From: Cellvibrionales bacterium
GTDB lineage: Bacteria; Pseudomonadota; Gammaproteobacteria; Pseudomonadales; JAHEIH01
Direction of reading: 5' to 3'
Assembly: GCA_024639455.1 (NCBI GenBank)
Contig: JAHEIH010000001.1
Coordinates: forward strand, 62,001 to 126,000
DNA: 64,000 nt
The translations under genes and the position numbers were made by a program. Below, piece after piece: positions 47,289 through 52,402 of this stretch. The notes beneath the pieces are model-generated. The model made no database searches and was not told the DNA's origin. It worked only from the letters and a program-made list of their open reading frames with translations. How positions within the stretch are numbered: the stretch's first letter is position 1; the number at the start of each line of letters is the position of its first letter.

Positions 47289-47639
47289 GTGGTTACCAAT
47301 CGTGTGGATATTAACCAAGTTCTTATGCAAATGCGCGCGCTTAAAGCGGAGACGCAAGGCATTCCTGTCGGCGGTGCAGACTTCAATCCAGCGCAGGGTA
47401 TCAATCCTGCAGAGAAAAGCAATTTTAGCGACATGATGGTCAAGGCTATTGATACCGTCAATGACAATCAAAAAGCCGCCTCTCAATTAGCTACTCGATT
47501 TGAAATGGGTGATCCCAACGTTGGCATTACCGAGGTGATGATTGCCTCACAAAAAGCCAGTGTCTCCTATGAAGCGCTCACTCAGGTGAGAAACAAGCTA
47601 GTAAAGGCCTACGAAGATATTATGAATATGCCGGTGTAA
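47289..47639 (+). CDS. fliE: Flagellar hook-basal body protein FliE
   Basis: Rod-base adaptor between the MS ring and the rod. The 116-residue product starts at a GTG (47289) with AGGAG 6 bases upstream. C-terminal FliE motif VGITEVMIASQKASVSYEALTQVRNKLVKAYEDIMNMPV is visible in two parts (MIASQKASVSYEAL and NKLVKAYEDIMNMPV). It is intact. fliF follows after 11 bases. Confidence 0.95.
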   Translation: MVTNRVDINQVLMQMRALKAETQGIPVGGADFNPAQGINPAEKSNFSDMMVKAIDTVNDNQKAASQLATRFEMGDPNVGITEVMIASQKASVSYEALTQVRNKLVKAYEDIMNMPV

Positions 47640-47650
47640 GGAGTTAAGTC

Positions 47651-49312
47651 ATGGCGGATACAGCAATCGAAGCAACCCCGGCGAAACGATCTTTTGGAAA
47701 TGCCTTTATTGAGGGGTTTGAAGGTCTTGGTATTTTGCGTCAAATGGGTTTGATGATCGGTTTGGCGGCCAGTGTTGCGATGGGCTTTGCACTGGTTCTC
47801 TGGATTCAGGGTGAAGACTATAAACCACTCTACGGCAGTTTAGAAAACCTCGATGCCCCCGAGGTCGTTCGCATCTTAGAGAGCAATACCATTCCCTATA
47901 AAATTGATCAAAACAGTGGTTCGTTATTGGTCGCTAGCGACGATATTCACTCTGCGCGTCTGAAATTATCTGAGGCAGGGGTTCAAGTGGGTAACGGACG
48001 AGGTTTTGAACTACTCGATCAAGAGCAGCCATTAGGTACCAGTCAGTTTATGGAACAGACGCGTTTTCGTCGCGGTTTGGAAGGCGAATTGTCTCGAACG
48101 ATTACTTCGATTAATTCCGTACGCAGTGCGCGAATACACTTGGCTATTCCTAAATCCACAGTATTTATTCGCGATCCCCGCCGTCCAAGTGCCTCGGTAT
48201 TCCTCGAATTGTATGCCGGCCGCAGCATGTTACCTGAGCAAGTTATGGCGATTGGTAATCTGGTGGCTTCAAGCGTTCCAGAGTTGGAGTTGAAAGATGT
48301 CACAGTGGTCGACCAACGCGGTAATTTATTGTCAAACTTTACCCGTGACAGTGAATTGGACGCGGCTAACAAGCAATTGGACTACCAGCGCAAGTTGGAG
48401 GAGCGTTTGACTCGCCGTATTCACGGCATACTGGAACCGATGTTAGGAGAAGGGCGCTTCCGCGCTGAGGTTGCGGCAGATATCGATTTCACCGCGGTCG
48501 AACAAACGCAAGAAATGTACAACCCCGAAGCCACGGTCATTCGCAGTGAGCAAATTTCTGAAGAGCGCAATCTCAATGGTTTGGAAATAGGCGGCGTCCC
48601 CGGTGCGTTGGCTAACCAGCCAAGCCCTGATGGTAACCCTGCCACCGCGACTGGCAGCAATGGCGCAGGTGAGAAATCAATGCAGGCTACCCGTAACTAC
48701 GAGGTAGATCGCACGATCGCCCATACTCGTCATCAAGTAGGCAAGATAACTCGCTTAACGGTGGCCGTAGCAGTTGACGATCATCGCGCGGCGGGCGTTG
48801 ATGGTGTGCCTGGTGAGGTTACCGCGTGGACTGAAGACGACTTAGAGCGGATACGCACTCTGGTGAGCAACGCTGTAGGATCTGACCAAGGCCGCGGCGA
48901 TGTGGTCAATGTGATTAATAAGCGATTTATCGAACCTGAGACCTACGTCGCAGAAGACATTCCCTTTTACGAACAGGATTGGTTTAACAAATACGCCAAG
49001 CTGGGTGCCTCGGTGTTGGTCATGATCGTGTTGGTGCTCGGTGTGTTGCGTCCAATGTTTACAGGTATTACCGCCGCCGGAACTAAAAACAAAGAGAGTG
49101 AAACGGTCTCTGAGTTCGGCGGTCTTGATATGTATGGTAGTTCGCCTAATTACGGCGATACCAAGGTAAGTCTGAGTGGTGGTGATAGTGTGATGCTTCC
49201 CAGTGGTAACGAAGGTTACGAGCAGCAACTTTTGGCTATACGTGGTCTCGTCGCCGAGGATTCAGGTCGTGTAGCACAAGTGATTAAACAGTGGATTAGT
49301 CAAGATGAGTGA
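47651..49312 (+). CDS. fliF: Flagellar MS-ring protein FliF
   Basis: Builds the MS ring in the inner membrane and the seat for the C ring. The 553-residue protein has both membrane helices (about 30-52, GLMIGLAASVAMGFALVLWI; and about 445-465, LGASVLVMIVLVLGVLRPMF), the ring-building motif region LDAPEVVRILESNTIPYKI, and a complete C terminus with the FliG-binding helix GRVAQVIKQWISQ. It overlaps the start of fliG by 8 bases. Apart from its broken neighbour it looks functional. Confidence 0.95.
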   Translation: MADTAIEATPAKRSFGNAFIEGFEGLGILRQMGLMIGLAASVAMGFALVLWIQGEDYKPLYGSLENLDAPEVVRILESNTIPYKIDQNSGSLLVASDDIHSARLKLSEAGVQVGNGRGFELLDQEQPLGTSQFMEQTRFRRGLEGELSRTITSINSVRSARIHLAIPKSTVFIRDPRRPSASVFLELYAGRSMLPEQVMAIGNLVASSVPELELKDVTVVDQRGNLLSNFTRDSELDAANKQLDYQRKLEERLTRRIHGILEPMLGEGRFRAEVAADIDFTAVEQTQEMYNPEATVIRSEQISEERNLNGLEIGGVPGALANQPSPDGNPATATGSNGAGEKSMQATRNYEVDRTIAHTRHQVGKITRLTVAVAVDDHRAAGVDGVPGEVTAWTEDDLERIRTLVSNAVGSDQGRGDVVNVINKRFIEPETYVAEDIPFYEQDWFNKYAKLGASVLVMIVLVLGVLRPMFTGITAAGTKNKESETVSEFGGLDMYGSSPNYGDTKVSLSGGDSVMLPSGNEGYEQQLLAIRGLVAEDSGRVAQVIKQWISQDE

Positions 49313-49628
49313 TAATAAACCCGCACCCCCCATGTCCAAACTTGACAGTGCAGCGGTACTGTTGATGAGTCTGGGTGAGGCTGATGCGGCGGCCATTTTA
49401 AAGCATATGGGGCCCAAAGAAGTACAACGTGTCGGTGCGGCGATGGCCAATTTGGGTAACGTGTCTCAGCAGCAGGTTGAAAATGTGGTACAAACCTTTG
49501 CCTCTGATGTGGGGACGTTAACCGGTCTAGGCATGGGCGCGCCGGTATTGTCCAGCCTGTTGCCACGCCAGTTAGCGATGAGAGCTCATCGGTGGGGCAA
49601 AATTATCGTAGTTGGGTGGATGAAGTGA
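49305..49628 (+). pseudogene. fliG: Truncated fliG, 5' end only, fused to foreign 3' sequence
   Basis: The first 79 codons are a clear FliG N terminus: KLDSAAVLLMSLGEADAAAIL, KHMGPKEVQRVGAAMA and the GTLTGLGMGA segment. Normal FliG has about 330-340 residues with three armadillo-like domains; here homology ends near 49541, where family members go on with a D-x-Y-I segment. The remaining 28 codons (PVLSSLLPRQLAMRAHRWG...) are an out-of-frame reading of another gene, ending at 49628. The middle and C-terminal FliG domains are missing; the space before parA (182 bases) cannot hold them. It cannot make a working rotor switch. Confidence 0.88.
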
Positions 49629-49753
49629 GCGAAGCGCTTGGCCGTATTCGCTCTGAAGCGCCAACACAACAAACGGTGATCACTCCACCAGAGGGCGTCG
49701 ATATTGTGAGGACGAAAGACGGAGGTATTTTGATTACACGGGAAGAGCAATAG
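49541..49753 (+). pseudogene. 3' remnant of the gene that preceded parA (probably motD)
   Basis: In the frame +2 to the fliG fragment, 70 codons run to a TAG at 49751-49753: AGIVQPVATPVSDESSSVGQ, NYRSWVDEVSEALGRIRSE and a final PPEGVDIVRTKDGGILITR-like tail. This reads as real C-terminal protein sequence with no start of its own. In pseudomonads the gene just before this parA is motD, whose product has an OmpA-like domain and a variable tail. I infer that this is the motD tail; the OmpA domain itself is absent, so identity is by position, not by sequence. Confidence 0.6.
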
Positions 49754-49809: not shown

Positions 49810-50595
49810 GTGAAAGTATGGGCGATCTCAAATCAAAAAGGCGGCGTGGGCAAAACGACCACAGCGGTTAGTCTAGCGGGCCTATTGGCCGAAAAGGGAC
49901 AACGTGTCCTGTTGGTCGATCTTGATCCTCACGGATCAATGACTAGCTATTTTGGTTTTGACCCTGAGGAGCCGGCGGCAGCCACCACCTATCATTTTTT
50001 CGAAATGACGTCTTCGGCCACCCGCGACCAGGTACTGGCGTGTGTCCAGCCAACCGCTGTGAAGGGTATGTCCATCGTACAGTCTTCCACTGCGTTGGCT
50101 ACACTTGAGCGGCAAATGGTCGGCAAGAGCGGTATGGGTTTGAAGGTAAGCCAGGCATTAGCGCTTATCGCTAATGATTTTGACTACGTGTTGATTGATA
50201 GCCCGCCGATTCTCGGCGTGTTGATGATCAATGCCCTGGCGGCTTGCCATACGTTACTTGTCCCTGTGCAGACAGAGTTCCTAGCAATTAAGGGCCTGGA
50301 GCGCATGTTGCGCACCTGTGAGATGGTGCTTAAATCGCAGAAAAAAAGTTTCGATTACCTCATTATTCCCACCATGTTCGACCGGCGTACGCACGCGTCG
50401 ACTGCCAGCCTGAGAGAGTTGCGCAACACCTATCCCGAGGCTATTTGGGCGGCCATGGTGCCGGTGGATACCCGTTTTAGGGATGCTAGCCAAGCCGGTG
50501 TGCCCATTTCGGTATTTGACGCCAATACTCGTGGTACAGAGGCCTACCGCTCGCTACTTAAACACCTGATAAGTGCCAAAAAGAGCGCAGTCTAA
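49810..50595 (+). CDS. ParA/MinD-like ATPase of the flagellar/chemotaxis cluster
   Basis: A 261-residue ParA-type ATPase from a GTG start. It has the deviant Walker A KGGVGKTTTAVSLAG, a Walker A' LLVDLDPHG and DYVLIDSPPILG. In Pseudomonas relatives this gene (PA1462 type, ParC/ParA-like) lies after motD and helps position chemotaxis arrays at the pole. Its stop overlaps the next ATG by one base (TAATG). It is not near oriC, so chromosome partition is unlikely. Confidence 0.9.
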   Translation: MKVWAISNQKGGVGKTTTAVSLAGLLAEKGQRVLLVDLDPHGSMTSYFGFDPEEPAAATTYHFFEMTSSATRDQVLACVQPTAVKGMSIVQSSTALATLERQMVGKSGMGLKVSQALALIANDFDYVLIDSPPILGVLMINALAACHTLLVPVQTEFLAIKGLERMLRTCEMVLKSQKKSFDYLIIPTMFDRRTHASTASLRELRNTYPEAIWAAMVPVDTRFRDASQAGVPISVFDANTRGTEAYRSLLKHLISAKKSAV

Positions 50596-51452
50596 TGTCT
50601 CTGCCGGGCGACAAAAAAAACAGTGAAGTCCTCGCGCAGTACTTCGATGTATTGTTGACCCCTCAGGAAGATTCTCCTGTTGACCTTACTGACGCCGCTG
50701 ATGAAGTTGATTTAGAAGAGGAGGGGGTTGTTGAGGCGGTGGTCGTGGTGCCGGAACCCGAAGAACCAGAACCAGAGCCAGAACCAGAGCCCCAGCAGGC
50801 ACTTGAACCCGAGCTTTATATTGCCCCTTTGGGCAGTTTGCAGATGGTCATTCCCGCCGCGCTTCCTCTAGCAGAAGAGCAGCGATTGCGTGTTCTGGCT
50901 GAGTCTATGCAAGCCCAGCTGCACGTTGATACAGAAACGGTACAGCTTACCGATGAAGCGGTTCAAGAAAATATCCAACAGGCCGATAGTTGGAGTGATG
51001 TTGGCAGACCGCACTGGGCAGAAGGCGATTTTGACTGTTTGCTGTTTGACGTACAAGGGTTGAGACTAGGTTTGCCATTGGTGAGTTTGGGCTCTATACA
51101 CCCGCTCGATTTCGATGCCATCAGTACCATGCCTGGTCAATCCCAATGTTTTTTGGGTGCCGCTACAGTACTGGGACAGCAGTTTAATGTAGTGGATACT
51201 GCGCAAATGGTCATGCCAGAGCGTGCCGATCCAGCAAAGAGTCAGCAGTATCGATATTTGGTGACGTTGGACCACTCGCGCTGGGCGCTGGCAGTCAGTG
51301 CAATAGACGTGGCTAAGCGCTTTAATCCAGAAGACGTGCACTGGCGCAGTCAGCGCACACAAAGGCCTTGGTTGGCCGGTACCATTCGAGCGCACATGGT
51401 GGCTTTGATGGATCCACGGGCCTTGGCTGAATTGTTGGTGCAGAAAAGTTAG
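50595..51452 (+). CDS. CheW-domain protein with acidic Pro/Glu linker
   Basis: A 285-residue protein matching the PA1463-type gene next to this parA in pseudomonads. Residues about 25-75 are acidic and hold a run of Glu-Pro repeats (PEPEEPEPEPEPEPQQ). The C-terminal half (about 135-285, FDCLLFDVQGLRLGLPLVSLG to RAHMVALMDPRALAELL) is a CheW-like domain. It probably links ParA to the chemosensory array. It overlaps parA by one base. Confidence 0.85.
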   Translation: MSLPGDKKNSEVLAQYFDVLLTPQEDSPVDLTDAADEVDLEEEGVVEAVVVVPEPEEPEPEPEPEPQQALEPELYIAPLGSLQMVIPAALPLAEEQRLRVLAESMQAQLHVDTETVQLTDEAVQENIQQADSWSDVGRPHWAEGDFDCLLFDVQGLRLGLPLVSLGSIHPLDFDAISTMPGQSQCFLGAATVLGQQFNVVDTAQMVMPERADPAKSQQYRYLVTLDHSRWALAVSAIDVAKRFNPEDVHWRSQRTQRPWLAGTIRAHMVALMDPRALAELLVQKS

Positions 51453-51522: not shown

Positions 51523-52002
51523 ATGGCGAGTTCAGCTGAAAAGGTAGACGAAGATCCCATTTTGCAATGGGTGACCTTCTTGCTGGAAGGCGAGGTATAC
51601 GGCATCAATGTGATGCAGGTACAAGAAGTGTTGCGTTATTCGGATATTGCGCCCGTTCCTGGGGCGCCCACTTATGTGTTAGGGATCATTAATTTACGTG
51701 GCAACGTGGTAACGGTGATAGATACCCGTGACCGCTTTGGACTCCCACGTGCAGAAGTCACCAATAACACGCGAATCGTCATTATTGAAAGCAATGATCA
51801 CGTGGTGGGAATTCTGGTCGATGCTGTGGCGGAAGTCATCTACCTGAAGCAATCAGAGATTGAAACGGCGCCAAATGTGGGTAGTGACGAAAGCGCCAAA
51901 TTTATCCGTGGTGTGTGTAACAAAAATGACGAACTGCTTATTCTTATCGATATCGACAAAATGTTGACCGATGATGAGTGGGCAGAGGTCGACGATATTT
52001 AA
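51523..52002 (+). CDS. cheW: Chemotaxis coupling protein CheW
   Basis: Couples chemoreceptors to the CheA kinase. The 159-residue protein is a single CheW domain: WVTFLLEGEVYGINVMQVQEVLR, VPGAPTYVLGIINLRGNVVTVID and VVGILVDAVAEVIYL. A GAGCGAGGATAAATC leader precedes the ATG, 70 bases after the previous gene. No CheA, CheY, CheB or receptors are in the window. Confidence 0.95.
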   Translation: MASSAEKVDEDPILQWVTFLLEGEVYGINVMQVQEVLRYSDIAPVPGAPTYVLGIINLRGNVVTVIDTRDRFGLPRAEVTNNTRIVIIESNDHVVGILVDAVAEVIYLKQSEIETAPNVGSDESAKFIRGVCNKNDELLILIDIDKMLTDDEWAEVDDI

Positions 52003-52012
52003 AGGGTTTACC

Positions 52013-52402
52013 ATGGTGGATTACGATATGGCGATTATCGCCGGTAGTGTGTCAGCGATGCTCTTATTGGCCTTTATTGCTGGTATGGCCATCGTTCAAG
52101 TTAAGCGCGTGCAGGGGCAAGTAGATGGCCTCAAAAACGAGATGGCCGAATTCAAACGACAACTCAGCACTGTTAATAGAGGCACCATGGGGGTCGGGCA
52201 GCACCTATCGGCGCTAGAAAAACGACTTTTAAGTGGTCTCAATAAAGTTGAGCAGCAGTCGCTTAAGGAAATGAGTATGTTGAACTACGGCGACGCGACG
52301 CGCTTGATCGAACAGGGGGTGGAACCCGAAATCTTGGTCAAGCGCTGTGGAATGTCACGCGGAGAGGCCGAATTAATGTGTAAGCTTCGTCAAAGCGCTT
52401 AG
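52013..52402 (+). CDS. DUF2802 protein
   Basis: From the ATG at 52013, 129 residues: an N-terminal membrane helix ([23 protein letters not shown]), a coiled coil (about 30-75) and a C-terminal helix-turn-helix-like end ([28 protein letters not shown]). This is the DUF2802 family, last gene of the pseudomonad flagellar/chemotaxis cluster (PA1465 type). Its function is not established. Its last four bases overlap the convergent queD gene. Confidence 0.85.

Follow-up and report, generated by a model that had tools for sequence, protein, structure and literature searches.

Two joins of truncated genes point to the probable loss of a polar flagellum through large deletions in a Cellvibrionales bacterium

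The window analysed in this study is a stretch of 64,000 nucleotides from a Cellvibrionales bacterium (GenBank assembly GCA_024639455.1, contig JAHEIH010000001.1, positions 62,001 to 126,000), in which the flagellar genes fliE and fliF are followed by a fliG gene that breaks off after 79 codons and runs directly into the 3' end of another gene, identified here as motD, ahead of a group of chemotaxis genes. The source genome (G000) is a 2.88 Mb draft of 29 contigs that is 99.5% complete; the join lies in mid-contig, at approximately base 111541 of 230125, and the window contains no Ns. Two reference flagellates with intact clusters, G029 and G030, both from other families than the window's genome, were used for comparison, and the gene names in G029 were assigned by us from order and sequence. 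The locus contains the following features.

47289 to 47639, + strand: fliE, intact (Pfam FliE, E 3.2e-28)
47651 to 49312, + strand: fliF, intact, 553 aa (Pfam YscJ_FliF, 5e-62; YscJ_FliF_C, 3e-46)
49305 to 49541, + strand: fliG codons 1-79, a 5' remnant (Pfam FliG_N residues 10-79; alignment with G030 FliG)
49541 to 49542, no strand: putative deletion join 1 (placed, to within a few bases, where the FliG similarity stops and the MotD tail begins)
49542 to 49628, + strand: out-of-frame continuation of the fliG reading frame as far as the first stop (open reading frame 49305-49628)
49542 to 49753, + strand: 3' end of motD, approximately 70 codons, lacking an in-frame start at the join (alignment with the G115 MotD C-terminus)
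49810 to 50595, + strand: parA of the chemotaxis/flagellar locus, intact (up to 63% in relatives)
50595 to 51452, + strand: CheW-like gene, intact (Pfam CheW, 3e-11)
51523 to 52002, + strand: cheW, intact (Pfam CheW, 2e-41; 75% to G029)
51971 to 52402, + strand: DUF2802 gene, intact (Pfam DUF2802, 1.6e-12)

The original prediction, made from the letters of the window, described fliG as normal over codons 1-79 with a change of frame at about 49541, followed by a C-terminal tail of about 70 codons and then by parA, the CheW-like gene, cheW and the DUF2802 gene. All of these coordinates were confirmed. When the product was aligned pairwise with G030 FliG, similarity stopped at GLGMGA, codon 79; past this point the fliG frame contained 28 codons of unrelated sequence and ended at a stop at 49628. 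The left flank of the join is thus the 5' part of a single gene of the ancestral cluster. The tail is read in a different frame, without interruption as far as the stop at 49751-49753, which lies 56 bp upstream of parA, and ends in ...EGVDIVRTKDGGILITREEQ.

The gene directly upstream of parA in relatives was found to be motD, or cheB where motD is missing. MotD tails are highly variable among relatives, and several end like GVkTikLedGGLLFTN. Pairwise comparison of the window tail with the MotD of relatives was suggestive (p 0.004-0.006 for L022 and L059, and 0/500 for L030), and a profile of six MotD tails ranked it second among approximately 1200 reading frames of the window with an E of 1.2, which is not significant alone. 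No match to the tail was found in Pfam, PHROGs or NCBIfam. A search of 391 genomes of the order returned approximately 70 matches, all of them weak, and among the 30 of these that were inspected one (G115, E 0.13) fell on the C-terminal end of a MotD whose gene lies directly upstream of parA. We estimated the chance of any match falling at such a site at approximately 0.2% (about 70 matches, about 200 eligible bases, about 8 Mb on both strands). Alignment of the tail with the end of G115 MotD covered approximately 60 residues with a score of 66, which was reached in 0 of 1000 shuffles. These comparisons identify the tail as the C-terminus of MotD, in agreement with the original proposal that the far end lay probably in motD. 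The right flank is the 3' part of a downstream gene that has the same strand and order in G030.

In G030 the cluster runs on one strand through fliE, fliF, fliG, fliJ to flhA, flhF, fleN, fliA, cheY, cheZ, cheA and cheB, and then motC and motD, followed by parA, the CheW-like gene and cheW, arranged and oriented as they are here. The distance from fliG codon 79 to the start of the tail is approximately 26.5 kb in that genome, obtained partly through the MotD-parA spacing, and it falls within the 25-30 kb originally predicted for a single deletion. A genome search for fliG to fliN, flhA and motCD had also been proposed. On the 29 contigs, no FlhA, FliG_C, FliM, FliP, FliR, FlhB, FlhF, FleN, FliA or CheZ was found, nor was flagellar CheA, flagellar CheB or MotC/D, so that every gene sought from the fliG-motD interval was absent. 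The CheY, FlhF, FleN and FliA queries matched other proteins only, at 22-39% identity, which we read as other response regulators, signal recognition particle-type GTPases, ParA/MinD-type ATPases and other sigma factors. The CheA, CheB and MotC/D queries matched motAB (contig C13), ChpA in the Pil-Chp cluster (C27), OmpA-type proteins and a CheB-CheR-PAS protein. Since the export gate (FlhA, FlhB, FliP and FliR) was not found, these genes do not make up a functional flagellar system.

A second scar of the same kind was located on contig C9 (G000:C9:131588-133012, corresponding to L091:1588-3012), followed by a tRNA-Arg gene at L091:3018-3091. The flagellin gene fliC, at C9:131588-132877, was considered as an intact retained flagellin because its 429-aa open frame looked whole; this was rejected since it has Flagellin_N and no Flagellin_C. 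Directly after fliC, in a different frame, there are approximately 43 codons reading VNRSLKATQRVLSILRGGSVEQNLYS... that match the end of FlgN (profile positions 115-145 of 147, E 0.006; p 0.001 against G029 FlgN). Here too, what follows a truncated 5' gene is the 3' end of a different gene from the same cluster. The order in G029 is fliC (+), flaG, fliD, fliS, flgL to flgB (-), cheR, cheV (-), flgA, flgM and flgN (+), with approximately 24.6 kb between the matching point of fliC and the flgN tail. The rod/hook domain PF00460 (flgB/C/E/F/G), FlgK, FlgI and FliD were not found genome-wide; the search did not cover flaG, cheV, cheR, flgA and flgM individually. Beside the scar remain fleR, fleS, fleQ and two fliS genes. 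A CcdA/CcdB-like toxin-antitoxin pair is present between the two fliS genes (G000:C9:128751-129331; L090:18751-19331), and an apparent amino-acid permease gene sits between fliS and fliC.

On both sides of both scars, gene order and strand are the same as in the Pseudomonas-type polar clusters of G030 and G029, whose interiors are intact there and missing here. We therefore consider it highly probable that the polar flagellum of this lineage was lost through two large deletions. The first would have started near codon 79 of fliG and stopped some 70 codons before the end of motD, a span of approximately 26 kb, and, judged from relatives, would have removed the remaining C-ring genes, the export gate, flhF-fleN-fliA, cheYZAB and motC. 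The second, from late fliC to the last 43 or so codons of flgN, approximately 25 kb, would account for the missing genes of that locus by removal of flaG, fliD, fliS, flgB-L, cheR, cheV, flgA and flgM. Together the two would explain the loss of the flagellum, and on gene content the bacterium presumably no longer swims. Outside both segments fliE, fliF, fleQSR, two fliS, motAB, eight chemoreceptors and cheW would have survived. Illegitimate recombination is the presumed mechanism. At join 1 no long repeat was found, but only a weak 20-nt pair nearby and away from the join, and joins 1 and 2 share no sequence of more than 9 bases and no common recombination site. The original single-deletion picture holds for fliG-motD, but it was incomplete, being one of two deletions.

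Several smaller deletions may have opened each gap, with the present joins being only the last of them. Such stepwise decay would give the same end state, and one genome cannot tell the two courses apart; nevertheless it appears unlikely, because neither join contains gene debris, the two ends of each gap are gene parts that belong at just these edges, and the flanking genes have open frames and, in most cases, no unusual divergence. The original prediction also warned that an assembly join would look alike, that is, that the segments are present in the cell, were left out and had their flanks misjoined. The draft state of the genome gives this some room, but a second locus on another contig carries the same kind of scar with its genes missing, so the same error would be needed on each of two contigs, both times precisely at flagellar genes, and approximately 50 kb would have had to vanish from a 99.5% complete assembly without a long repeat at join 1. 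An assembly artefact is thus very improbable. It is just as doubtful that the segments reside on an unassembled plasmid or replicon, or were lost in only part of the population: an unassembled replicon would be invisible in the assembly, but none of the genes sought occurs on any of the 29 contigs.

Some points weigh against two single deletions as the explanation. Both joins are known from the assembly sequence alone. The ancestral gene content and spacing are approximate because G029 and G030 belong to other families, and since the exact ancestor is not in the sample the break points are resolved only to within a few codons, and more than one step may lie behind each gap. In addition, FliE is somewhat more diverged than expected (51-56% compared to 66%).

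The similarity of FliF, FliG(1-79), ParA and CheW to cluster-bearing relatives was approximately that of the relatives among themselves; for FliF, identity was 53-54% to flagellate relatives compared to 55%. The retained genes have open frames, and most show no unusual divergence. The open state of fliEF, fleQSR, fliS, motAB, cheW and the eight chemoreceptors suggests that the loss was recent or that the remnants are still used, without dating the events. The congener G001 (75% complete), which besides the window's genome alone represents the genus and family in the sample, contains flhA-flhF-fleN-fliA-cheY, flgE to flgJ and fliI-fliJ. Among the 13 relatives without an FlhA match, FliF was found in one (G022, a fragmented genome), which makes an intact fliEF remnant unusual in this sample. 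In G001 (L119, G001:C64), the genes after fliI-fliJ encode a STAS-domain protein, CheY, CheA, CheW and a chemoreceptor, and they form an additional chemotaxis set within the fli cluster.

Flagellar loss is common, and usually only the decayed end state is seen. With both scars readable and most of the remaining regulon seemingly intact, the first steps after loss of an organelle become testable here; the genome could show which parts decay, which stay, and whether orphaned chemoreceptors change partner. Legionella longbeachae is non-flagellated and has lost the structural genes while keeping fleSR, fliA, fleN and flgD; the loss there is not considered recent (PMC5655016). Regulators persist in both cases (fleSR there, fleQSR here), as do chemotaxis genes without a flagellum; in contrast, fliA and fleN were not found in the genome studied here, flgM was presumably lost, and both break points are readable. 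Lysobacter enzymogenes is also non-flagellated with part of the flagellar gene set kept (PMC9927559). It resembles the window's genome, so judged from its genes, in combining these two traits, but the genome studied here has none of the export genes sought and keeps fliE and motAB, which is nearly the converse. The window's genome is the same kind of case as these two; its break points are clearer, and as an example it is unusually easy to read.

Nine PF00015 matches were found, on C9, C13, C14, C22, C27 and C28, and eight of the corresponding chemoreceptor genes score above the family cut-off and are open; motAB (C13) is open as well. ChpA (C27), which belongs to the Pil-Chp system of type IV pili, was the only CheA-like kinase found. 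It is conceivable, as a long shot, that the surviving chemoreceptors, CheW proteins and ParA are not idle: in a genome where the search gave no flagellar CheA, all chemoreceptors but PilJ might now signal to ChpA, and swimming chemotaxis would have been rewired to surface movement after the flagellum was lost. A scan for sigma-54 promoters gave no more matches than expected by chance. A CheR/PAS-type gene at L118:5811-7538 (G000:C25, approximately 133.8-135.5 kb) appears to be split into four overlapping or adjacent frames and is probably a pseudogene.
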